From positions 1 through 26,079 of the IMG/VR virus record IMGVR_UViG_3300034104_003449: DNA of 26,079 nucleotides. One strand, written 5' to 3'. This stretch comes from a virus. Under the pieces are notes generated by a model that worked only from the letters and a program-made list of their open reading frames with translations, was not told the DNA's origin and did no database searches. Positions 2,654 through 23,772 of this stretch are shown one piece after another. Position 1 is the first letter of the stretch. The number at the start of each line of letters is the position of its first letter. Both the position numbers and the translations under genes were made by a program.

Positions 2654-3079
2654 ATGACCGACCAGCACCGCGTCACGCCTGAGCAGTGGGCCAAAGTGAT
2701 CACAGACGCTCGGATTTGGCAGGGCCCCTTCGAGTGCATCCTCGAACTCCGCGACCGCATCGCAGCGCTGGAGGCAGCCCATTCGCCCCAGCCAGACAAG
2801 CTCGACCGGCTCATAGCGCTGGACGCTGCCGATCCGAACTGGGAACCCGATCCCGCCATGCCCGAACTCCGCGCCGCCAGCGCCGGGGCCCAGCCCGCTG
2901 GGGGGTTGGTGGAGAGGGTGGCGGCCCGGATTGAGTACGGCATTGATGCCGAGCTGGACCCGGAAGGCATCGCCCGCGCCGCAATCCGCGAGTTGGCCAA
3001 ATGGTTGCGCGACCGCTACCCCAAGTCTCCCGAGGCTGGCGCGGTGGCGTTCAACCTCTGCCAGGAGGTCGACCTATGA
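2654..3079 (+). CDS. hypothetical phage protein (141 residues)
   Basis: I choose the ATG at 2654 over upstream GTGs because the protein starts cleanly (MTDQHRVTPEQWAKV) and the context GGAAACACCATGACC resembles other starts in this window. Residues 25-45 are a likely coiled coil (CILELRDRIAALEAAH). A Pro/Asp-rich linker follows, then a second helical region (GLVERVAARIEYGI...AAIRELAKWLRDR). Family function is unknown to me. It is coupled to the next gene by ATGA, and a strong ribosome site for that gene lies in its last codons. Confidence 0.6.
   Translation: MTDQHRVTPEQWAKVITDARIWQGPFECILELRDRIAALEAAHSPQPDKLDRLIALDAADPNWEPDPAMPELRAASAGAQPAGGLVERVAARIEYGIDAELDPEGIARAAIRELAKWLRDRYPKSPEAGAVAFNLCQEVDL
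3062..3068 (+). promoter_or_regulatory. strong ribosome binding site AGGAGGT for the 3076 gene
   Basis: A near-perfect Shine-Dalgarno lies 7 bases before the ATG at 3076. It stands out because most starts in this window lack one, and it fixes the start of the 3076 gene inside a longer open frame. Confidence 0.75.
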
Positions 3080-3885: not shown

Positions 3886-3935
3886 GGTTCAGGGTATCCA
3901 TGGGAATAGCCTGGCTTCCCCGCTCGCGAACCACC

Positions 3936-4334
3936 ATGGCGCAGTATCGGTACGATCCCGAGCTGCAGCAGATCGCCGCTGCACGTTTCGGGGACATGCT
4001 GCGGCGGTGGCGTGAACAGCAGGGCTGGACCCAGTACACCGCCTACAAGTGGGCCAAGGGTGCCGGGTTTGTGGCGATGGCGCCGAGCACGCTGAGCGTG
4101 ATGGAGAACGGCCTGGCACCGAAACCCAGGCCAGAGACGTTCTTCGCGCTGGCCGAGATCCACCGCCGGCTGGCGCTGCAGGAGTTTGACGGCATCACCG
4201 ATCGATCACTGGCCCAGCTGGTGGAGGCCGCCCAGCCGCTGCGTGGTGACGATGGACGGGTGTGGGGCCCGGCTGAGTTCTGGAGCTGCCACGTCGGGTT
4301 GCTGGGGGTGCCGAACGCCTACGCAGACCCGTGA
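3936..4334 (+). CDS. XRE-family helix-turn-helix regulator (candidate phage repressor)
   Basis: 132 residues from the ATG at 3936; an upstream ATG at 3900 in the same frame would add 12 unlikely residues. Residues 18-80 form a five-helix XRE/Cro-type domain: RFGDMLRRWREQQGWTQ, then a helix (YTAYKWAKGAG), then the recognition region APSTLSVMENG. This keeps the typical S-x-x-E-N-G ending. An extended C-terminal part (SLAQLVEAAQPL...WGPAEFW) may mediate dimerisation; there is no peptidase domain of LexA/CI type. It lies directly upstream of the serine recombinase and divergent from 3676-3885, the usual place for a lysogeny regulator. The DNA target is unknown. Confidence 0.72.
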   Translation: MAQYRYDPELQQIAAARFGDMLRRWREQQGWTQYTAYKWAKGAGFVAMAPSTLSVMENGLAPKPRPETFFALAEIHRRLALQEFDGITDRSLAQLVEAAQPLRGDDGRVWGPAEFWSCHVGLLGVPNAYADP

Positions 4335-4339
4335 TTACT

Positions 4340-4380
4340 TGTGCGCTCTGCTGGCGTTATAGCGCTAGAATTAGCGCACA
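4340..4380 (+). repeat. inverted-repeat site A upstream of the recombinase
   Basis: TGTGCGCT at 4340-4347 and its complement AGCGCACA at 4373-4380 form 8-base arms 25 bases apart, with an inner palindrome AGCGCT at 4361-4366. A matching site lies inside the gene at 4692-4738. The region also has TATAG and TAGAAT (4366-4371) hexamers and is the only spacer upstream of the recombinase, so it may serve as operator, recombinase binding site, or both. Confidence 0.6.
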
Positions 4381-4413
4381 GCTGCGCGGCAAGGGTTGAA
4401 AAGCAAGGAGACA

Positions 4414-6087
4414 ATGCGCTTAAAAACGCATCGTTATTACGTTTACGCCTACCTAGGCGAAGATGGCAACCCCTATTACATCGGCAAAGGTTGCGGTCGC
4501 CGTTCTCTTATGCCTCACCGCGCCGATGCTCCGACTCCAGAAAGCCCTTCGCAAATCTTGATGCTGGCCGAGCGGCTAGACGAGGAAACGGCGCATTTTC
4601 TAGAGGCTCGGCTAATTGCTCAGTACGGACGCAAGGCCGCCGGGACAGGGTGCTTGCTCAATATTCGCCCCGGAAGGCCTGCGGCATCTACTGTGCGCTC
4701 TGGCTCCACATCGAAGCTAAATACTGCCATAGCGCACAATGGGAGCGACCCCCACGGTATTCCAGTGATCCTTGGGTACTGCCGCATCTCAACTGATGGC
4801 GAAGACCAGGACGGCGCCTTTCAGGCACAGGCTGCGCGGCTCACGGCGGCTGGCTGCGATCGTGTCATTGCCGAACGAGAGAGCGGGCGCAAGGCGGACA
4901 GGGAGGGACTTGCCGAGGTGATGGCGTTGGTCACCAGTGGAAACGTAAAGGAGCTGGTTTTCACACGCATTGACCGACTCGGCAGGGACGCTGCGCAAAC
5001 TGACACATTGCTAGCGCTTTGCGATCTGCAGCAAGTAAAGGTCCGAGCACTTGATGGCGGTGTTATCGAGACTGCCTCGCCGCAAGGTTTTCTACTTGCG
5101 CGGGTGATGACAACCATGGCGGAAGTTGAGTCACGGATGCTTAGTCAGCGTTTGCGGCGGAATTTTGATGTTTATCGGGCTCAGGGCCGCCATCTACGCA
5201 GAAGACTTCCTTTTGGTTACGACCGTGGCGATGGAACAAAGCTAGTGCCTCACTCAACAAACTTCGCTTACGCAATTCGTGTTATCAAAGAGTTGCGGCA
5301 GCAAGGCAGTTTTGCTGCTGTGGCCAACTCGCTTCCAGACTGGTGTCCGTGGACGCCAGCCGCTACCAGCCTCCAAGCCTGGTTTGTCAACCCCGTCATC
5401 CGTGGCCACATCGGCCACCACCTCGACCGCAAATCAGGCAAGGGCTGGCGGCAGCAGTGGGGCGAGATTCACTACGACCAGCACCCGGCGCTGATCAGCG
5501 ATCGGGACTGGCGGGATCTGGCCGCCCTGCTGCAGCGCCCTACCAACCGGTTTAAGAACACCGGCAGCACCGAAGTGCAGCATGGGCTGACAGGACTGCT
5601 CCGGTGCGCCAGCTGCGGCCATCTGCTCAGGCGGAATACATCCAATGGTGTCGCCTGGTGGAGGTGTCGGCATCGGCTCTGCACAGCCCGGGGCGGCGCC
5701 CGTGAGGATCGGATCCTGCCGGTGGTGATCGATGCCTGCGTGGCCGAAGCGCACCAACTCGCCGCGCTGCTGGCCCAGCCAGAGTCGGACGATCCGATGC
5801 TGATCGTGATGCGCGACGAGCTGGAGCTGATGGAGCGAATGGCCGCACGCAACCCAGAGAACCGGGCAATGGCGGCAGCGGTGGCAGAGCAGCGCCAGCG
5901 GATCGAGGCACTGCGCAGGGTGGAGCGGTCGGCGGCGGATCCCGAGCTGTGCGAAAAACTGCGGGATCCGTGGTTCTTCGCCGGTGCTACGCCGGAACAG
6001 CAGCGGGCGATGCTGGCGCTGGTACTGCGATCGGTGACGGTGGGGGAACGTGGCGCCCCGATCGAACCTCTTCCTCGTAGCTCTTGA
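4414..6087 (+). CDS. large serine recombinase with N-terminal GIY-YIG nuclease domain (probable phage integrase)
   Basis: 557 residues from the ATG at 4414, which has AAGGAG at 4405-4410; a TTG at 4396 would add six. Residues 7-88 are a GIY-YIG domain: YVY at 9-11, YIG at 22-24, Arg30, catalytic-type Glu64 and a closing LLNIRPG. Residues 118-250 are a resolvase catalytic domain with Ser126 in YCRIS and the arginine helix RIDRLGRD (185-192). Residues 255-340 match the recombinase domain. A zinc ribbon follows (Cys398, Cys401, Cys418, Cys423), then a coiled coil (465-505) and a C-terminal region. Serine integrases cut and rejoin attP and attB. A nuclease fused in front is atypical. GC is low (about 50-57%) up to near 5340 and high after it, so the gene looks chimeric. 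An internal in-frame GTG just before the catalytic domain could give a recombinase-only form. Confidence 0.9.
   Translation: MRLKTHRYYVYAYLGEDGNPYYIGKGCGRRSLMPHRADAPTPESPSQILMLAERLDEETAHFLEARLIAQYGRKAAGTGCLLNIRPGRPAASTVRSGSTSKLNTAIAHNGSDPHGIPVILGYCRISTDGEDQDGAFQAQAARLTAAGCDRVIAERESGRKADREGLAEVMALVTSGNVKELVFTRIDRLGRDAAQTDTLLALCDLQQVKVRALDGGVIETASPQGFLLARVMTTMAEVESRMLSQRLRRNFDVYRAQGRHLRRRLPFGYDRGDGTKLVPHSTNFAYAIRVIKELRQQGSFAAVANSLPDWCPWTPAATSLQAWFVNPVIRGHIGHHLDRKSGKGWRQQWGEIHYDQHPALISDRDWRDLAALLQRPTNRFKNTGSTEVQHGLTGLLRCASCGHLLRRNTSNGVAWWRCRHRLCTARGGAREDRILPVVIDACVAEAHQLAALLAQPESDDPMLIVMRDELELMERMAARNPENRAMAAAVAEQRQRIEALRRVERSAADPELCEKLRDPWFFAGATPEQQRAMLALVLRSVTVGERGAPIEPLPRSS
4692..4738 (+). 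repeat. inverted-repeat site B inside the recombinase gene
   Basis: TGTGCGCT (4692-4699) and AGCGCACA (4731-4738) repeat the arms of site A in the same orientation; the left part TGTGCGCTCTG is an 11-base exact match. It encodes the linker between the GIY-YIG and catalytic domains. Arm spacing is 31 bases here and 25 in site A. Confidence 0.6.
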
Positions 6088-6096
6088 GTCGCTGCA

Positions 6097-6115
6097 ACAG
6101 GGCCTCGCGGCCTGT
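6097..6115. terminator. hairpin between convergent genes
   Basis: ACAGGGCC-TCGC-GGCCTGT can fold as a 7-pair stem with one bulged G and a four-base loop, just after the recombinase stop and before the end of the reverse-strand operon. There is no T-run on either side, so termination is only suggested by position. Confidence 0.3.
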
Positions 6116-6141
6116 CAGCGGAGGGCTGCACTTCCGCATCT

Positions 6142-6612
6142 TCACCCCTCCACCACGTACAGATTGCAGTCCCGGGCGAACCCGGGGCCTTCCTCAATCG
6201 GATCAGGAAAACCCATGCGGCACTCCTCACCGTTCCAGAGCTTGCAGCGGTAGCAGCTCAGCTCGTTTGGCTCTGGCGCTGGCGCATCCTGCCCCCACCT
6301 GGGGATTTCTGCGCGGCGGCGGGTGTACAGCATCCCTATCCTGATCTGGCGGATCAGCTCGGATGAACACTGCATCGCCAGGGCCATTTCAGCGTGGCTG
6401 CAACGCGAGAGCAGGATTTCCTTGATGTCATCATCACCGAAGCGGTAGTTACCCCTGCCGCCAGCCTTGCGTTTTGGTGGTGGGTCGGTGAAGTGCTCGG
6501 ATGATTGTTTGCAGGATTTGCAGATAATCAGGCGAGCACGAACACCGCCGGATTGAACACGGCTGCGGACGATCGTTATCTCGGTGGAATGGCAGTGCTT
6601 GCAGTTGATCAT
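6142..6612 (-). CDS. zinc-ribbon and helix-turn-helix protein with C-terminal four-cysteine module
   Basis: 156 residues. Cys4-x2-Cys7 and Cys31-x2-Cys34 make an N-terminal zinc ribbon. Residues 60-97 look like an HTH of resolvase/transposase kind (IKEILLSRCSHAEMALAMQ then SSELIRQIRIG). A second cluster (Cys120, Cys123, Cys131, Cys149) could hold another metal or an iron-sulfur centre. The combination fits a nucleic-acid-binding regulator encoded at the downstream end of the early operon. It overlaps dcd by four bases. The exact family is not known to me. Confidence 0.68.
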   Translation of the reverse strand: MINCKHCHSTEITIVRSRVQSGGVRARLIICKSCKQSSEHFTDPPPKRKAGGRGNYRFGDDDIKEILLSRCSHAEMALAMQCSSELIRQIRIGMLYTRRRAEIPRWGQDAPAPEPNELSCYRCKLWNGEECRMGFPDPIEEGPGFARDCNLYVVEG

Positions 6613-7121
6613 CCCTTGCTTGCCTGCGCTGTGGTATCACCGTTGTAGCGGCCAGTCTGCGCATAGCTGGCTAGTGGCCGCTCAGCCATCAGGTGAAACA
6701 CCATCTGCCCGATCTTCATCCCCGGCCAGAGCAGCTGGGGCCACAGCTGGCGGTTGTTGCGCAGCTCCAGCGTCAGTACCGAACCGTGCCAGCCCGGGTC
6801 AGCCCACACGGCCAGCGCCTGATCCAGGCCTTCGCGGGCGCGGCTGGACTTTAGGCGGAACTCCGCGGCCACGTCATCCGGCAGGTGGAACACCTCCATC
6901 GTCTGGGCCAGGCAGAACTGCCCCGGCACCATTTCGTAGGGGCTGACCTCGCTGTGCCGGCTGAGCGGGTACGGCAGCAGCTCACGGCTGGAGACCGACT
7001 CAATCAGCAGGTTGTCGCCGAGCCTCACATCCAGGCTGGCGGGATTGATCAGCTCAGGGTCGTAGCCCTCCACCATGCCGCCTTCGCAGCGGCTGCGGAT
7101 CTGCCAGTCACACAGAGGCAT
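6609..7121 (-). CDS. dcd: dCTP deaminase / dUTPase-fold enzyme
   Basis: 170 residues, slightly short of bacterial dCTP deaminase (about 190). Recognised by INPASLDVRLGDNLLI near residues 25-41, the nucleotide-binding segment KSSRAREGLD (91-100), GWHGSVLTLEL (110-120) with Glu119 in the catalytic-glutamate position, and PGMKIGQMVF (133-142). The C-terminus is GRYNGDTTAQ. The enzyme converts dCTP to dUTP, feeding dTTP synthesis; bifunctional members also release pyrophosphate. In a phage this would raise thymidylate supply or keep uracil out of DNA. It is co-directional with and overlaps the zinc-ribbon gene downstream. Deaminase versus dUTPase cannot be decided by eye. Confidence 0.88.
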   Translation of the reverse strand: MPLCDWQIRSRCEGGMVEGYDPELINPASLDVRLGDNLLIESVSSRELLPYPLSRHSEVSPYEMVPGQFCLAQTMEVFHLPDDVAAEFRLKSSRAREGLDQALAVWADPGWHGSVLTLELRNNRQLWPQLLWPGMKIGQMVFHLMAERPLASYAQTGRYNGDTTAQASKG

Positions 7122-9107: not shown

Positions 9108-9716
9108 TCATTTGAGACTCCAGCTCCGCCGCTCGATCAGGGTGCAGCCGGGCACGGTTTTGACCGTGGCGACGGCAGCGGCCTTGGCAGCGGCATCTTC
9201 ATCTTGCGCGGCTTTCACCGCTGCAGCGACAGCGGCATTGATCGATTCCTTGATCGCGGTCTTGTTGGCTTCGATCTTGGTGCGCTGATACAGCTTCGGT
9301 AGATCCTCCGGCTCGCAGTCCACCACCACAACCGTAGATTTCCGGCTGGTGATTTTGTGTCCAGGCAACTGATAGGAGGTCTCATCAGGGATGGCCTTCT
9401 GCAGCGCTGTCACCAGAATGTCCAGCATCGCCTCCTGTTGCCGATCATCACCAGCGGCCAGCTCTGCCAGCGCCTGAGCGCGAGCTTTGCGGGCATCACG
9501 CCGGGCCCTGAGGCTGTCAATCACCCAGCACCAGGCGTCGGCCTTGGCGAGGATGGCCTGTTTGTTGTCGGACTCGGCGGAGATCAGGCCTTCCAGCGTG
9601 GCCTTGGCCGCGGCCACCACGGCGGGGTCGTCGCTGAACAGGTCGGCGGCGGCCTCGTCGATCTGCTGCTGCAGGCGGAGGGCGTCGCCGGTTAGGGCGT
9701 AGAGGGTGGTGGTCAT
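9108..9716 (-). CDS. Gp157-family phage protein
   Basis: 202 residues from the ATG at 9716; a TTG at 9722 would add two. The layout is that of siphovirus Gp157 proteins. It opens TLYALTGDALRLQQQIDEAA, then a long coiled-coil body (KADAWCWVIDSLRARRDARKARAQALAEL). A beta segment follows (GHKITSRKSTVVVVDC then EDLPKLYQ), then KIEANKTAIKESI and a closing VPGCTLIERRSWSLK. An Ala-rich insert lies before the closing part. The family was linked to phage resistance in Streptococcus phages and is widely found next to single-strand annealing genes; none is seen here. Family assignment is strong, function weak. Confidence 0.85.
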   Translation of the reverse strand: MTTTLYALTGDALRLQQQIDEAAADLFSDDPAVVAAAKATLEGLISAESDNKQAILAKADAWCWVIDSLRARRDARKARAQALAELAAGDDRQQEAMLDILVTALQKAIPDETSYQLPGHKITSRKSTVVVVDCEPEDLPKLYQRTKIEANKTAIKESINAAVAAAVKAAQDEDAAAKAAAVATVKTVPGCTLIERRSWSLK

Positions 9717-9718
9717 GG

Positions 9719-10006
9719 TCAATTCCCCAGGGAGTAGCTAACGGATGGCTGCGTTAGCGCCTTCTTGAACGCTTCCAGCCCCGCCACCCGCCGCTCCAGT
9801 GCGTCGATGCGGTCGGTCTCGGTGGGGGTGGGCTCGGTGGCTGGCTTCCAATAGCTGGTGTGCTGCCACGGGGCGCCAGGGCCGACATAGCTCCAGTGGG
9901 CGAAGTTGTACTCACTGGAGCCTGGCCGTGACCTCAGCCGCACATCCTCATTCCCATCCCCATCCGCCCTAGTCGGCGGACGGTCAGTGATCCATTGCTG
10001 TTCCAT
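9719..10006 (-). CDS. first gene of the early reverse operon, hypothetical
   Basis: 95 residues. The N-terminal part (QQWITDRPPTRADGD...DVRLRSRPG...FAHWSYVGPGAPWQHTSYW) has the W-I-T-D-x-x-P-T opening and aromatic ending of small phage DUF551-like modules. The C-terminal part is a coiled coil (TDRIDALERRVAGLEAFKKAL). It is the promoter-proximal gene behind the element at 10031-10063. Its stop lies two bases before the Gp157-like start. Function unknown. Confidence 0.62.
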   Translation of the reverse strand: MEQQWITDRPPTRADGDGNEDVRLRSRPGSSEYNFAHWSYVGPGAPWQHTSYWKPATEPTPTETDRIDALERRVAGLEAFKKALTQPSVSYSLGN

Positions 10007-12979: not shown

Positions 12980-14131
12980 TCACTCCGTAAAGATCGGGAA
13001 CGAGCCGGCAAATCCTTTGTCGCTGTGCAGGAACCGCATCCCCTGCTGCGGGCGCTCGATTCGGTAGCCGCTCTGCAGCCCGTACGGCGCACACCCCGGC
13101 AGGCTGCCGTTGCTCGTTGCCCTGGACCCAAACCCCAGCGTGTGGAAGTGGCCGTGGAAGGTGTGATCAGCCGGCACCGACTGGTCCAGGTTCTTGGCGT
13201 GCTTGTCCACGTTCCACAGCGGCCCCGCCGCCCCGCCGTTGTAGCGAACCGAATCGCCATGGAAGAACCGCAGGCGCTTGCCGTACACATCCAGGTAGAG
13301 GCAGTCAGCATCAGCGATAAACCACTCCAGCCGCGGCTCATCCCGGTAGTGCCGGCGCATTGAGCAATACGCCAGATGCTCGTAGCTGTTCTCGGTGGCG
13401 TTGCTCTGCTGCTTCTTCGTGTTCCGCCCGTGATTGCCCACGTTGCAGGGGATCAGCATCCTCTCCAGGTCGGAATGCTGCAGCAGGTAGTCCAGCCCCC
13501 GCACGATCGCCCGCTCGCACCTGACGATCTGCTGCGTTGTGGTGAGCGTCTGATTCTGCACCGCATCGCCGTGTAGCTCCCCCTCGATTAGATCGCCGCC
13601 CAGCCAGATCACGGCCTCCCGAATTGTTGCCGTGCTCCGTTGTCCGTTGATCACCTTCAGCGCATTGCGGAACACGGCATCTAGCCGGTCGTCGAATATC
13701 TCGGGGTTGAACTCGTTGAGCCCGTTGACGGATGACGGTTTGACGATCTGCCCGCAGTGCAGATCAGACAGCAGCAGGATTGGCACCGCCTCATCTTTCT
13801 GCGGATCCTCTGGCGGGGTGATGATGCCCTGATCAAAAATGTCCTTGATCTCAAGCGCCACCGTCAGCGCATCCTGCACCGCCTCCAGCTTGGCCAGGGC
13901 GCGCTCTGCGCTGGCTTTGGCATCCCGTGTCTCTGCCCGCAGCCGGCGCGCCTCCAGCTGCAGCGCCAGCACGTCATCAGCTGTATCGCTGCGCTTGCCG
14001 TTTGGGCAGCACCCCGGCTTGCATAAAGGCCGCCGCTGGCCCGACTGTTCAACCCACTCAACAGACGATTCAGGAATCCAAGCCCTGCAAACTTTCGACC
14101 GGCGACACTGATACGGGCGTTCGGTCGTCAT
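12980..14131 (-). CDS. metallophosphoesterase with N-terminal Cys motif
   Basis: 383 residues. Calcineurin-like phosphoesterase motifs are complete: SDLHCG (122-127), GGD (178-180), GNHGR (232-236), HGDS (291-294) and HGHFHT (326-331). These supply the Asp/His/Asn ligands for two metals. Ahead of them lie a cysteine module (Cys9, Cys15, Cys37, Cys41, Cys42) that may bind zinc, and a coiled coil (54-96). Phage relatives are DNA-repair exonuclease-like or phosphodiesterase enzymes; the substrate cannot be read from sequence. Situated 15 bases downstream of the HNH gene and read in the same direction, suggesting a DNA-processing role. Confidence 0.9.
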   Translation of the reverse strand: MTTERPYQCRRSKVCRAWIPESSVEWVEQSGQRRPLCKPGCCPNGKRSDTADDVLALQLEARRLRAETRDAKASAERALAKLEAVQDALTVALEIKDIFDQGIITPPEDPQKDEAVPILLLSDLHCGQIVKPSSVNGLNEFNPEIFDDRLDAVFRNALKVINGQRSTATIREAVIWLGGDLIEGELHGDAVQNQTLTTTQQIVRCERAIVRGLDYLLQHSDLERMLIPCNVGNHGRNTKKQQSNATENSYEHLAYCSMRRHYRDEPRLEWFIADADCLYLDVYGKRLRFFHGDSVRYNGGAAGPLWNVDKHAKNLDQSVPADHTFHGHFHTLGFGSRATSNGSLPGCAPYGLQSGYRIERPQQGMRFLHSDKGFAGSFPIFTE

Positions 14132-14146: not shown

Positions 14147-14491
14147 TCACGACGGGGACACTTGAGGCTTACCCTCAGTGTGCGGACTACTACCAATCCA
14201 CCCATCAATTCGCGCTGCACGATGTACGCAGTGCCAGGCCTGGGCCTCAAACCACTCCCGCCAGTCCGTCGAGGATTTCGCCCCGTTGCAGCGTTGGCAG
14301 GCGGGCACCAGGTTCTGAGCCACCGTCAGCCCGCCCCGGGAGCGCGGCAGCACGTGGTCGAGGGTGTCGGCCGAGTCGGTGCAATAGGCGCACTGGTGGT
14401 TCCACTCGGCGAAGATCCTGCGGCGGAATCGGGCCTTGGTGGCTTTCTTGGGCTGGAGCTCGGTCTGATCGATCAGGTGATCGAAGGGCAT
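14147..14491 (-). CDS. HNH endonuclease
   Basis: 114 residues. The HNH core is complete: Cys34-x2-Cys37, Asp45-His46 (TLDHVLPRSRGG), a following Asn60 and Cys65-x2-Cys68-Asn69. The two Cys pairs would bind structural zinc and His46 would be the general base. The N-terminus is basic (KKATKARFRRR). Small HNH proteins of this type act as packaging-associated nickases or homing nucleases in phages. Here it follows the endolysin with a one-base overlap (TGATG) rather than sitting by a terminase, so the role is open. No intron is evident. Confidence 0.88.
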   Translation of the reverse strand: MPFDHLIDQTELQPKKATKARFRRRIFAEWNHQCAYCTDSADTLDHVLPRSRGGLTVAQNLVPACQRCNGAKSSTDWREWFEAQAWHCVHRAARIDGWIGSSPHTEGKPQVSPS

Positions 14492-15771
14492 CAGCGCTCA
14501 GCGATGACTGCCCATCCCGTGTTCGCGCCTTCCACCTGCCACCGTGGGCCGAAGTTCCGCCGGCTGTACCTGGCGAACCGGGCCACGCCTCCCGGGGTGG
14601 CGCCGCTCACCAGATCGGCCTCACCGAACGGGTCATGCACGACCAGGTGATCCTTCGTGTAGCCCACCACGATCAGCCAGTGGCCACCGCCGGAGGGTGC
14701 CGACACCGGGCCGCGGTGCAGGAACCCGACCGGCACGGGCACGCCGCGGTTGATCTGCTGCTCCAGGTCGGCGAACCCGGCCACCTTGGTGAACTTCGCC
14801 CGGATCCCGAAGCTCGACAGCGCCCGAATCTGCGCGGTCGGGTCGGTGGTGTCGCCGTACTGCTGGACCCGTTTCAGATACTGATCGTCGCCGTTCGGGC
14901 CGGCGAGGGTCCCAGGCTTGAGGTACTGCAGCAGCATGGCGCAGCTGGAGCTGAAACACATCCGAGCCGCCTGGTCCCGGTCGGCGCTGTCCATCTGCGC
15001 GTACCAGGGCACCTGCAGCGGGTTGCCGTAGCCGGTGGACTGCTGCAGGTGCACCGCCGGCCGCCCAGCCAGCGAGATCGCCGCCACTGCTCGAGCGAAG
15101 TACGCCTCCCGATCCGCCAGGCCGTTGGCGGGGTCGCGGCCGTTGACCTTCGCCGAAACCTGCCGGCAGCTGGCGCCCTGATCCACGAACGCATTGATCG
15201 CGTTCAGGTGCCACCAGAACCCGGCGGAGGTGAACGGATACCGGATCGACACGTAGGACGCCCCGTCCATCACGTCTGGATCTTTGATGTAGTCGGCGAA
15301 GCGCTGGTAGTTGTAGCGGCCCGTGAGCTGGATCGCCCCGGCGCCCTTGAACCGGCGACCGTCACCGGTGCGGGTGTTCCCCAGGTCCTGCCGGCCTTCG
15401 TAGGCGTCGCCGCTGGCGAGCTCCAGCATCCACCGCAGGCCGCCGGATTCGTGGCCGACCTGGGCCAGGAAGTGCCGGATCCTCGCCGGGGTGTTGAACG
15501 CGAATCTCCGCAGGCAGGAGTTGAGATCCGCCAGCTGGCTGGCGCTGGGCGATCTGGTGAACACCGCCGTGGCCTGGGCCATTGTCACCAGCTCGGCGGG
15601 CGGCGCCGGCGCTGCAGGGCTGCCCTGTGCCCGCCAGAGGTCGGTGAACTCCTGGCGCTGCTCAGTGGTGGCCCGCTCCCACGCGGCCTCCCACGCGGCC
15701 AGCTGGTGGGGGGTCATTGCGCCGGCACGGGCGACGTGCTCAGCAGCGGCGCGGAAGGTGGCGAAGGTCAT
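14491..15771 (-). CDS. two-enzyme endolysin: GH19 chitinase/lysozyme domain plus C39-type peptidase domain
   Basis: 426 residues without signal peptide. Residues 1-50 are an extra helical segment. Residues 62-230 match glycoside hydrolase family 19: catalytic Glu108 in QVGHESGG, a second acidic EGR near 125, and FKGAGAIQLTGRYNY (141-155). Residues 250-426 match the C39-like peptidase fold: Cys272 in the RMCFSSSCAMLL helix, His364 in GGHWLIVVGY and Asp380 in VHDPFGE form the triad. The first domain should cut the glycan strands and the second could cut the peptide bridges of peptidoglycan. It is coupled by ATGA to an upstream small membrane protein, as in lysis cassettes. The peptidase substrate is inferred. 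Confidence 0.88.
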   Translation of the reverse strand: MTFATFRAAAEHVARAGAMTPHQLAAWEAAWERATTEQRQEFTDLWRAQGSPAAPAPPAELVTMAQATAVFTRSPSASQLADLNSCLRRFAFNTPARIRHFLAQVGHESGGLRWMLELASGDAYEGRQDLGNTRTGDGRRFKGAGAIQLTGRYNYQRFADYIKDPDVMDGASYVSIRYPFTSAGFWWHLNAINAFVDQGASCRQVSAKVNGRDPANGLADREAYFARAVAAISLAGRPAVHLQQSTGYGNPLQVPWYAQMDSADRDQAARMCFSSSCAMLLQYLKPGTLAGPNGDDQYLKRVQQYGDTTDPTAQIRALSSFGIRAKFTKVAGFADLEQQINRGVPVPVGFLHRGPVSAPSGGGHWLIVVGYTKDHLVVHDPFGEADLVSGATPGGVARFARYSRRNFGPRWQVEGANTGWAVIAER

Positions 15772-19116: not shown

Positions 19117-22100
19117 TCAGAGCACGACGTTGGGGGTGATGTTGAAGCCATGTTCGGGGCTGATCCCCCGCACGTAGGACCTCAGCGCCATGTTCAGGAA
19201 GAACGTGCCATCTGCCTGATTCAGGGCGGCGGCGGTGATCACGGGGTTGTATTCCTTGCCGGTGCCGCCGACCGGGTTTGGTGCGCCGAAGGTGGCAGAG
19301 CCAGGGACGTACTTAGGCAGGATCTGCGTAGTCTGATTGATTGCCAGTCCTGCCACCTTGAAGATACTCAATGCGGTGTTGTCAGGAGTTCCGCTGCCCA
19401 ACCTGGACTCAGCGGCAAGAAACACTGTTGCGCCGCGCTCCTGATCTAGCAGGCCCTCATTGCCCAGCAGCACGCCACGGGCCTTGACGGTGTTGTAGCC
19501 GTTGGAGCCGAACCGACCGACAAAGCCCTGCGAGACAGCGCCAGTGGACGATCCAGCCTGGCCTGTAAGGAACGACTCGCGAACGGTCAGGCTCCGCTTT
19601 GCATGGATGAACTGATCCAGGAATGGGCCGCTGTCATTGTCGGCAGGCTCGGCGCCTGCACTGGTGAGCAGGTGAATGTGGTTCGCCAGGTAGCGGGTAT
19701 CAGTTGAGTTCCGATACCAGCTGCGATCACCAGCGGCTGAGCCTTGGTTGTAGCTAATCTTGCCGCCCATCTGGTCAATCACCACAGGCTCGCTGGTGAT
19801 CGATGAAAGGAACGTGTGATGGAACTGTCGCCAGGTCCAAGGGGTGGCCACTGACGCTGATCCGTAGTGGGCGCTGCTCGAATCGGGCACGGCATTTGTT
19901 ACCCCCATGCCGGCGCTGGTGATGGCCGCATTCCCGCGCAGGTAGATGTTGCTCCACCGCAGCTGCACAAGGCCGTTGGTGGCGATGTACGGCGCACGGT
20001 TGCCGCCCAGTGATTCTTTGCGCGACGGCAGCGCCGGGCCGAACACAATGCCGCGCAGGTCCGCCACGTCCGTGCTGTTGCCCTCCAGCTGCAGCACCGG
20101 GGTGGTGGTCCAGCTGTCATAGGCCGGGTTGCGGCCATTGCTGATCCGCAGCTGGTTCAGGAATGTGTCAACGTTCGTAGTGGTGTTGGTGGTGAATGCA
20201 CCACTGGGGAGCGCGACGCTGCCGGAGATGAGTTGCCCCTGAGTGATCGCCCCATCCGCCACCAGCTTGATCAGCTCGGGCACCCCTAGGCAATGGAAAC
20301 CCCCGCGAAAATCCACGCCACGCAGGCAGCGCATCTGCCGGCCGATAGTGTTTACGTGCAGTTGATTGCCAGCGCTTGCGTTGTCGCGCAACTGCAGCAC
20401 AAACGCCCGGAAATTCACTCGGGTGGTCAGGTTGCCGTAACCCGAACCATCAAAATAGGTTTCAGCCGTGGCAGCGTCGCCGGTCTCAGTGAAGATCAAC
20501 GGCCAGCCGGCCTGGGTCGGGTCGCTGGCCCTGAACACCACGCTGCACTGCCAGATTGAGGCGGGGTCATACAGCCCCGGCGCAATCCTGATCTCTGCGG
20601 TCTGGTTGCCGCTGCCAATCACAGCATTGGCGTACTCTGCCGCCCGCGCCAGGGTCGGGATCGCCGCTGCCGGTGTGGTCGGCGGGGTGTCGAACATCGA
20701 GTCCAGATTTCGATCCGCTGCCGTGCTCTGCACGTAGATCGTCACCGTGCCGGTGGCAGCACTGATCAGCCGCTGGGCTTGCCGCCAGCGGTTTAGGCCG
20801 CCGATCGTCACCACATCCGGAGCGCCCTCCAGCGCTGCATCAGAACTGGCGACCGTGCCAGGCAGTTCGGTCAGTTGGGCGATGCTGGCCAGCTCCACGG
20901 CGCCAGCCCTGGTGGTCTTCGCCTGTGACTGGCTGCCGAACTCGGCGGTGCCGCCGATGGTCACGTCCTGCAGGCTGGCCGTGCCGCCGACCTGGATACC
21001 GTTCGGGAAGTCCGTCCGCTGCGCCTCATCCAGCGTCTGGCCGCCGAGTGATTCAGGGCTGATGGTGGCGCCCGTGGCGATGTCTTCGAGGCCCTTGGGC
21101 GTCACCTCGAAGCCGTCTTCGTTGCTGCCCTTGGGCACCACCCGGCCGCCAGCTGCGGAGGTGAAGTAATAGGTGAACTTGTTGAACTCCGAGAGATCGC
21201 CCTGCACCGCGGGCATGGCCTTCGAGTAGTTCCCGAAGCCGGCCCACTCCCACTGGTGGTTGTAGAGCCTGATCGTCGAAGGCCGCCGGAACTCCACCGC
21301 CCAGTTCCCCAGTCCGGTGGCAGCACCACCAGATGGAGCCGTGGGGAAGTCCGTTGCGCTGCTCGGGTCACGGTCACGGCTGCCGGCAGCCCGCGGCACC
21401 AGAGCGGCATGGGCGGCGGCATCAGTGAATCCCAGCGCCCGCAGCAGGGCATAGGCGCCCAGGTAGTCCGTGGCGGTGCGGTACTGATCCCGCACAGGGC
21501 CCGCCGAGGTCCAGATCGTTGTCCAGTTGATGCCCAGCGTGGTGGAGTCGTCCGTGTCGCTGGTGTCGGTGTCCAGCACCAGGATGGGCGCCTCCTGGCT
21601 GATCGCATCCTCAGGGTTGAACTCCGAGGGCATGTGCACGAACGTCTCGCCCCACAGCGCCGGGTCTGGCGATGCACCAGAGCTGACGAACGTCCCCTTG
21701 GCCTGCCAGTGCTTGCCGGCGTGCTTCACCACCGTTCCCTGGCGGTAGAACGTCGCGGTGGCATAGGTCTTCGACGGAGCGCCGCGGCGGATGGTCACCT
21801 CGCTGGTGCGGGTGACTCCAGAGCCAGGCAGGGGGCCCGTGCCGGCGGCGGTCACCATCAGTACCTCTTCCCCGCCAGCGGCCAGCACCCGGCCGATCGC
21901 GCCGTTGCTGCGGTTCGGGTCGGTCTGCAGCACGGCATCACGCTGCGGCAGCCTGGCGCTGGCAGTGTTGTTCAGGATCAGGCTGGACCTCCGCTCGGCC
22001 ACGGTGCGGGTGTCCACCACTCGGCGGATGTAGACCCGGCGACCGATCACGGCGTCCCCTGCCGCCTCGTTGGTTCCAGCCTGCAGCGGGGCGGCGGTGA

Positions 22101-23772
22101 TGCCGATCGAGGCCGGCGCAGAGCTGCTCCAGGCGCTGCTGCTCAGCGTGGCCCGCCAGTCAGCGCCGGCAGGGTTGTCGATCCAGATCCGGGTGCCTGA
22201 GGCGAACGAATAGCCCAGGGACTGCAGCAGTGCCGGGTTGGTGGCGCTGCTCGGGTCGATCGCCAGGCCGTTGGTCAGGGTGATGGCTGAGCCGCTCACA
22301 GCGGCCACCACGCCCAGCTCAATGCGGCGGATGTTGGAGGTTTTCTCGCTGAGGTTCAGCGGCACTCGCACCCGGCCGACCGCCCAGTTTTTGTCCTTGT
22401 TGAACGCAAAGCCTTTGTAACCCTTGGCGAGGGCAGAGCATCCGCCGAACGTGGAATTGCCGCCGTTGTCGGTGATCTCCCCGCCGGAGTCCACCATCGT
22501 CACCTCAGACTGGCCAATCCCGAAGATCGAAACCTTCTGGATGTAGGCGTTGTTGATTGCCGAGATGTGCCGGGTTTGGCGTGCAGGATTGCGCCGCACA
22601 TTGTCGGGCGCTGCGTTGATGTACTTCTGGTAGTCCTGTGGGGTGTTGGTCAGGCTTACCCAGTTGCCGCCTTCGTAGACCTGCCAGCAGCGCATATCCT
22701 TCTGCTGGTTGGTGCTAGTGAAGTTGGCGCAGACCATTGACTTCAGGCCGCTGATCTTGGCGCCGTCCCAGAACGCGCCGCCCATGCCGTAGTCGGAGCG
22801 CACCGATACGTTGAAGATGTACGGTGAGGCGCCTCTGGTGGTATCCCACGCGCTGGAGGGTGCCTGGGTCTGATCAATCGGGCCTACGATCTCGTGCTCA
22901 CTGGGCCGGGCCGTCAGCAGGGCGCTCGCCAGGTCGGCGCCAGTGCCAACGGCAGATTGGATTTTGGCGTAGAACGTGTCGAGCTCGGCCTTGCTGGCAG
23001 GGTGGAACACGTCCAGCAGGTGGACAGATTCGGCATGGCCGATCTTGTCCATTGCGGTGTAGTCGAAGAAGAATCCCGTGCCCGAGACCTTTAGGATGCT
23101 GCGGCGGTTGCTGTAGTCCGCGGCCTCATCCTCGACCTGCGTGACCCAGCTCGGGCGAATAGTGGTCTTGCGCAGATCCTGCCCGCGCATTGAGCATCCA
23201 CGGGGCAGCAGCACGCCGCCGGTGGAGGGGTTGAACGCGATCAGCTCGGCCGGGGTCGGGTCTTTCGCCGTGCCCCAGCTCGCCAGGCTGGTGGTGCCGC
23301 TGCCGGGGTCGTTCAGGGCGATGTGGACGCCACCGCTCAGCACGATGGTCACGCAGTCCACGTGAGCGCGTGGGTCTGAATAGGAGTACCAGTTCTTGCT
23401 GGTGATGATCGCCGCCTCGATCGCGGCGCGGTTGATGGTCTTGAAGGGCCGCGCTGAGGTGTATCCACATTCCAGGCGCTGCAGCTCGATTCGCCTCAGC
23501 TTCTGCTGGATGATCTCCGCGTCGGTCGCGCCGGCTTCGTGGCTGTTGTAGCTGCCACCAACAAACCGGTCAGAGCCGATGTACGGATCAACGTAGAGGG
23601 TGAACGGTGCATTCAGGGGGTCAGCAACCGCAAGCGCACCCGCCACGACTCGGGCATTGCCGCCCAGCTGCCGGAGCATGTCGATCAGGACGGCAACCTG
23701 ATCATTCGCCTCCGCCTGGCTGGCAGCCACGTCGAGGGCGCCGCTTTGCCCTGCCCGCTGCAGCTGGCTCAT
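19117..23772 (-). CDS. giant virion structural protein (1551 residues)
   Basis: The N-terminal helical segment (residues 1-50) is followed by FTLYVDPYIGSDRFVGG and RRIELQRLECGYTSARPFKTINRA. This signature recalls large virion proteins of T4-like cyanophages and implies a pectin-lyase-type beta helix (CVTIVLSGGVHIALND; GVLLPRGCSMRGQDL). Later parts hold more strand-rich units (LQDVTIGGTAEFGSQSQAKT; AEIRIAPGLYD) and a hallmark Arg/Asn-rich C-terminal region. No enzymatic residues can be assigned by eye. It is the largest gene here, likely a tail-side fibre or spike-bearing baseplate component. It is translated before the BppU-like and fibre genes. Confidence 0.8.
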   Translation of the reverse strand: MSQLQRAGQSGALDVAASQAEANDQVAVLIDMLRQLGGNARVVAGALAVADPLNAPFTLYVDPYIGSDRFVGGSYNSHEAGATDAEIIQQKLRRIELQRLECGYTSARPFKTINRAAIEAAIITSKNWYSYSDPRAHVDCVTIVLSGGVHIALNDPGSGTTSLASWGTAKDPTPAELIAFNPSTGGVLLPRGCSMRGQDLRKTTIRPSWVTQVEDEAADYSNRRSILKVSGTGFFFDYTAMDKIGHAESVHLLDVFHPASKAELDTFYAKIQSAVGTGADLASALLTARPSEHEIVGPIDQTQAPSSAWDTTRGASPYIFNVSVRSDYGMGGAFWDGAKISGLKSMVCANFTSTNQQKDMRCWQVYEGGNWVSLTNTPQDYQKYINAAPDNVRRNPARQTRHISAINNAYIQKVSIFGIGQSEVTMVDSGGEITDNGGNSTFGGCSALAKGYKGFAFNKDKNWAVGRVRVPLNLSEKTSNIRRIELGVVAAVSGSAITLTNGLAIDPSSATNPALLQSLGYSFASGTRIWIDNPAGADWRATLSSSAWSSSAPASIGITAAPLQAGTNEAAGDAVIGRRVYIRRVVDTRTVAERRSSLILNNTASARLPQRDAVLQTDPNRSNGAIGRVLAAGGEEVLMVTAAGTGPLPGSGVTRTSEVTIRRGAPSKTYATATFYRQGTVVKHAGKHWQAKGTFVSSGASPDPALWGETFVHMPSEFNPEDAISQEAPILVLDTDTSDTDDSTTLGINWTTIWTSAGPVRDQYRTATDYLGAYALLRALGFTDAAAHAALVPRAAGSRDRDPSSATDFPTAPSGGAATGLGNWAVEFRRPSTIRLYNHQWEWAGFGNYSKAMPAVQGDLSEFNKFTYYFTSAAGGRVVPKGSNEDGFEVTPKGLEDIATGATISPESLGGQTLDEAQRTDFPNGIQVGGTASLQDVTIGGTAEFGSQSQAKTTRAGAVELASIAQLTELPGTVASSDAALEGAPDVVTIGGLNRWRQAQRLISAATGTVTIYVQSTAADRNLDSMFDTPPTTPAAAIPTLARAAEYANAVIGSGNQTAEIRIAPGLYDPASIWQCSVVFRASDPTQAGWPLIFTETGDAATAETYFDGSGYGNLTTRVNFRAFVLQLRDNASAGNQLHVNTIGRQMRCLRGVDFRGGFHCLGVPELIKLVADGAITQGQLISGSVALPSGAFTTNTTTNVDTFLNQLRISNGRNPAYDSWTTTPVLQLEGNSTDVADLRGIVFGPALPSRKESLGGNRAPYIATNGLVQLRWSNIYLRGNAAITSAGMGVTNAVPDSSSAHYGSASVATPWTWRQFHHTFLSSITSEPVVIDQMGGKISYNQGSAAGDRSWYRNSTDTRYLANHIHLLTSAGAEPADNDSGPFLDQFIHAKRSLTVRESFLTGQAGSSTGAVSQGFVGRFGSNGYNTVKARGVLLGNEGLLDQERGATVFLAAESRLGSGTPDNTALSIFKVAGLAINQTTQILPKYVPGSATFGAPNPVGGTGKEYNPVITAAALNQADGTFFLNMALRSYVRGISPEHGFNITPNVVL

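Follow-up and report, generated by a model that had tools for sequence, protein, structure and literature searches.

I-TevI consists of an N-terminal GIY-YIG domain, a linker and a site-specific DNA-binding part. The same domain occurs in the free-standing nucleases of the T4 Seg family and their cyanophage relatives (S-SRM01, B23, ACG-2014f). Homing nucleases occur at the borders of phage exchange (PMC10448857), and for GIY-YIG domains both mobility and loss of NUMOD modules have been discussed, with the caution that in many fusions the domain may owe its place to mobility rather than to a function (PMC1564403). Large serine integrases, of the XisF-like cyanobacterial branch and of the phiC31/Bxb1 kind, share a catalytic serine, a Recombinase domain, a zinc ribbon and a helical C-terminal region, and their attP dyad adjoins the gene. 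An attP within a gene is known for mycobacteriophage repressors, and in the integration-dependent immunity of mycobacteriophage BPs integration at such a site alters the product by shortening the repressor at its C-terminus (PMC4557955). In unicellular cyanobacteria, lysogeny has been described as apparently rare (PMC6157547). Each of these ingredients was thus already known; their combination in the locus described here is new to us.

The locus lies in a metagenomic cyanophage contig from IMG/VR (IMGVR_UViG_3300034104_003449), which was analysed over its whole length of 26,079 nucleotides (the window). Genes for a dCTP deaminase, a Mu Gam-like end protection protein, an exonuclease, an endolysin and a tail fibre (listed together at 6609-7121, 9108-9722, 12980-14131, 14491-15771 and 19117-23772, all on the minus strand) indicate a temperate siphovirus-like genome. 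A DUF4942 protein with weak similarity to DNA methyltransferases is encoded at 102-1172. As in I-TevI, a GIY-YIG domain, a linker and a DNA-binding part follow each other in one ORF, the DNA-binding part being a recombinase. The ORF shares with the Seg-type nucleases the domain, its signature residues, the phage setting and the position at a border of exchange, but where they have a C-terminal DNA-binding part it has an attP-encoded linker and the integrase, and homing is our proposal. The attP dyad adjoins the integrase part as in other large serine integrases, but there is a 117-residue N-terminal nuclease extension and attP lies within the ORF. As in BPs, attP is in a coding gene and integration would alter the product; the window integrase gene would lose an N-terminal nuclease, with any regulation by this loss being hypothetical.

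The GIY-YIG and serine integrase domains

The nuclease and the integrase are encoded by the following features, and their fusion is probably real:

4405-4410, plus strand: AAGGAG, Shine-Dalgarno-like by sequence, 3 nt 5' of ATG 4414
4414-6087, plus strand: ORF of 557 aa for GIY-YIG domain, attP-encoded linker and large serine integrase; frame open from 4375
4432-4677, plus strand: GIY-YIG nuclease domain, residues 7-88 (Y11, YYIGKG 21-26, R30, E64, N83), from PHROGs, alignment, an independent HMM and predicted fold
4765-6087, plus strand: large serine integrase, residues 118-557, with GTG 4765 (V118) at the start used by relatives, from Pfam, NCBIfam and relatives
4771-5190, plus strand: Resolvase catalytic domain, residues 120-259 (Pfam PF00239, 2.8e-27; L029-like)
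5587-5739, plus strand: recombinase zinc beta ribbon, residues 392-442 (Pfam Zn_ribbon_recom PF13408, 2.6e-7, above cut-off)

The ATG at 4414, the stop at 6087 and the length of 557 aa were rechecked and agree with the coordinates and reading frame of the initial annotation. In the sequence as given, the fused frame runs for 570 codons without a stop. A search for a consensus promoter upstream of the ORF found none.

The GIY-YIG part of the ORF had no match in Pfam or NCBIfam at E 1, which alone would speak against the nuclease domain proposed in the initial annotation. Three PHROG families did match it (15526, best at 5e-15, 10829 and 5356), and seven related phage proteins aligned to it with 36-45% identity. 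In this alignment Y9, Y11, YYIGKG, R30, E64 and N83 were invariant, so that the GIY and YIG motifs and the catalytic Arg, Glu and Asn are all present. An HMM that we built from the seven phage proteins alone, with the window sequence excluded, recovered the window ORF at 6.3e-25 and hit none of the other loci to which it was applied. The model of the isolated domain had a pLDDT of 79, and its top Foldseek matches were GIY-YIG nucleases only (UvrC, a 5hmC restriction enzyme), with weak E-values of about 0.03-0.05. The model of the full-length protein was poor over residues 1-113 and is therefore uninformative on the domain arrangement.

The domain is most closely related (about 45% identity) to homing-type nucleases that Synechococcus phages encode as free-standing proteins. 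A C-terminal DNA-binding module of its own (NUMOD, HTH) is absent: the domain stops at residue ~88 and is followed by attP. In the genome of S-SRM01, relatives of the domain were found in six places. One of them (MW015081.1, 62515-63273; 1989-2747 in our locus L247) belongs to a GIY-YIG protein that several cyanophage records label 'translation initiation factor 2', which is probably a misannotation.

Downstream, the motif GYCRIS holds Arg124 and Ser126 of the Resolvase domain, and a Recombinase domain (PF07508, residues 306-373) scored 0.7 bits under the Pfam cut-off. This Resolvase domain with its catalytic serine, together with the Recombinase region and the zinc ribbon, places the protein among the large serine integrases. 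The best NCBIfam model was the fdxN excisase XisF (NF041201), aligned over the full model length at 226 bits, below the curated cut-off of 375 for membership. No Shine-Dalgarno sequence was found near GTG 4765. PHROG, alignment, HMM and Pfam results together thus bear out that a complete serine integrase is preceded by a GIY-YIG domain whose signature residues are intact.

Scans of IMG/VR recovered about 60 related cyanophage integrases with ~49-84% identity. Their first residue corresponds to residue ~118 of the fused protein, and the nuclease domain is absent from every one of the ~60. Neither the 50,697 phage records nor the 72,556 plasmids contained the fused protein at >=80% coverage in one place, and two scans of genome contigs, in which cellular genomes were thinly covered, gave no relative. 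The fusion is a singleton among the IMG/VR relatives, phage records and plasmids searched; the same domain order did not turn up in the other genomes covered, and a single instance gives no support for a family. We found no description of a GIY-YIG-serine integrase fusion in the open-access literature, in line with the initial annotation, which knew of none.

A candidate attachment site within the reading frame

Directly 5' of almost every integrase of the clade lies a 42-bp dyad, GCGCT...AGCGC, in most cases centred on AA. Among 32 distinct 42-bp sites the spacing is fixed, and the arms vary yet the dyad is kept. A broad pattern for the dyad gave mostly chance matches. The prophage-like contig L250 is 99.9% identical to the phage L019 over 1882 bp comprising left arm and core, up to the core, and continues past the core with unrelated, host-like DNA, where the opposite strand reads ATGGCTGACACCTTTTCCTTAGAT (MADTFSLD). 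Since L250 joins half of the dyad to host-like DNA in an attR-like manner, we read the dyad as attP; for the same reason a mere operator was rejected as its sole role. This attR-like junction is a single case, in a relative and not in the window phage.

2360-2400 of L250, reverse complement: attR-like junction, from identity with L019 followed by host-like DNA

In nearly every phage of the clade the right arm contains, antisense to the integrase gene, an initiation codon and then codons for x-(T/S)-F-S-(L/F)-D or something close to it (surveyed upstream of the integrases in L002-L032 and L181-L216). The clade phages apparently insert into the 5' end of a host gene, which would thereby get a new start from the phage. 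This gene may resemble yajQ, as the cyanobacterial YajQ begins with a similar M-x-x-T-F-S-F-D-V; PF04461 (YajQ) had no match in 50 records and the yajQ identity is a lead only. In L205, the 110 bp that precede the integrase match at 3001 contain a variant attP, GTGCTCTTTTGACG...CGTCAAAAGAGCAC, with perfect arms of 14 bp, both arms being altered together and the spacing unchanged. L193 and L217 have no canonical attP dyad ahead of the integrase and possibly represent other att types or prophage ends.

In the window, the corresponding elements are:

4343-4360, plus strand: attP left-arm remnant GCGCTCTGCTGGCGTTAT, without core, 16/18 identical to the left arm of the family
4695-4735, plus strand: candidate attP of the window phage, 41 bp, dyad TGTGCGCT...AGCGCACA, centre AA 4714-4715, from a weight matrix and identity via L250
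4710-4730, minus strand: antisense host-gene start ATG GCA GTA TTT AGC TTC GAT (MAVFSFD, continuing to MAVFSFDV), as in nearly all clade phages

The weight matrix was built from the 32 distinct family sites. It scored 4695-4735 at 27.5 with one base missing, compared with -4.3 for the runner-up in the window and peaks of -8.6 to -0.5 in five shuffles. The site lies within ORF 4414-6087, and its codons form the linker that joins nuclease to integrase, so that an attP inside a coding sequence, as in an integration-dependent switch, is present. Integration at AA 4714-4715 should therefore part the nuclease from the integrase, and if fusion and attP are both real the integrated prophage would contain no intact fusion. 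If the hypothetical host flank resembled that of L250, the nuclease part would end up as a protein of 121 aa. The partial site at 4343-4360 we read, from its sequence, as a leftover of an earlier attP. Capture of a cassette between two att sites, as a circle taken up by the integrase, was considered and is not supported, since 4340-4380 holds a left arm only, has no AA core and scores at noise level.

Mosaic origin and possible role of the nuclease

about 4335-5305, no strand assigned: low-GC foreign tract of GIY-YIG domain, attP and integrase N-terminal half, from GC3 and the return of DNA similarity to relatives at 5290-5341

Upstream of the tract GC3 is 0.81 and downstream 0.77, but it falls to 0.55 in the GIY-YIG domain, to 0.59 in the catalytic domain and to 0.44 directly behind the latter. 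Both L029 and L002 have a GC3 of 0.92 in their catalytic domains. The composition breaks at ~4335 and ~5305 and shows no step between nuclease and catalytic domain, so that a single imported tract seems to hold the nuclease, attP and the integrase N-terminal half. Over residues 118-260 the identity is 93% with L029 and ~65% with L002, and over residues 310-557 it is 88% with L002. The integrase gene is a domain-level recombinant, with 4765-5340 L029-like and 5341-6222 L002-like. A regulator gene of the HTH_31/HTH_3 type (3900-4334) lies between the left flank of the phage and attP; only the start of this gene is present in L005 and L018, where an excisionase-like HTH stretch in antisense orientation comes next, which makes the DNA left of attP a variable spot. 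Homing with co-conversion would account for the low-GC tract, and so would ordinary mosaicism without homing.

We propose, at roughly even probability, that a homing-nuclease domain invaded the attP-int junction by tract exchange and now reads through attP into the integrase. The source would be a free-standing, Seg-like cyanophage homing nuclease and the recipient a temperate cyanosiphovirus; the GIY-YIG domain would have arrived between attP and integrase without a DNA-binding part of its own, on a tract whose attP and N-terminal integrase half took the place of the resident ones. From free or circular phage DNA, a nuclease-linker-integrase protein would then be made, whose integrase half would integrate at the 5' end of the host gene and could place the nuclease at att or int DNA. 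If the attP-int region of a co-infecting phage were cut and repaired from a window-type copy, the tract would spread by homing with co-conversion. Upon integration at AA 4714-4715, one prophage end would have the nuclease frame continuing into the host DNA, and the other the integrase with its GTG start. Spread of the gene by homing, as suggested in the initial annotation, receives indirect support from the free-standing homing-type relatives, the mosaic low-GC tract and the attP left-arm remnant. The nuclease is most likely a selfish element or a remnant and not essential to integration.

A fortuitous read-through is a possible, if doubtful, alternative: a decaying nuclease fragment without a role would precede an integrase made mainly from GTG 4765, as in L029. 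The relatives start at the equivalent of this GTG, including L029 with its 93% identical catalytic domain, the nuclease has no C-terminal DNA-binding part, and an attP of the window subtype is free of the in-frame stops that other relatives have. However, the Shine-Dalgarno-like sequence stands at ATG 4414 and not at GTG 4765, and all signature residues are kept across 88 codons without a stop.

It is unlikely, though conceivable, that the locus forms a one-way switch, in which the integrase-guided nuclease of the unintegrated phage attacks the attP-int region of competitors (for homing or exclusion) and integration disarms it, with a standard integrase staying behind at the prophage end. To regard the split of nuclease and integrase as a selected switch is speculation.

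The fused frame itself depends on a missing base, since the window attP has 41 bp, whereas all 32 distinct relatives have 42. With one base added to the arm, the GIY-YIG ORF would stop at 4794, past the start of the integrase, so that the two overlap. The short attP could be an impaired site or a sequence error; a true deletion is more likely than an error. That a one-base artefact or a recent indel hides a true state with a separate GIY-YIG ORF of 127 aa overlapping the integrase start seems quite improbable: this shortfall speaks for it, but a true deletion is plausible in a left arm that is divergent overall, the frame stays open over 570 codons of the sequence as given, and assembled contigs seldom contain single-base indel errors.

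That the nuclease directly serves integration, with nicking or cutting at att biasing its direction as the initial annotation proposed, is very improbable even though the nuclease is tethered to an att-binding protein, as a cut in attP would destroy the substrate, ~60 relatives manage without a nuclease and serine integrases are not known to need an extra one.

Returning to the invasion of the attP-int junction by a homing-type nuclease, such an event in the integration switch of a temperate cyanophage would offer a route by which integration modules move between phages. If the fusion protein is made, it would be a natural nuclease guided by a serine integrase, which integration changes through the embedded attP. 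Beyond the fusion, the comparison defines attP and an attR-like junction for a clade of ~60 cyanophage integrases, whose integration seemingly restores the start of a host gene.
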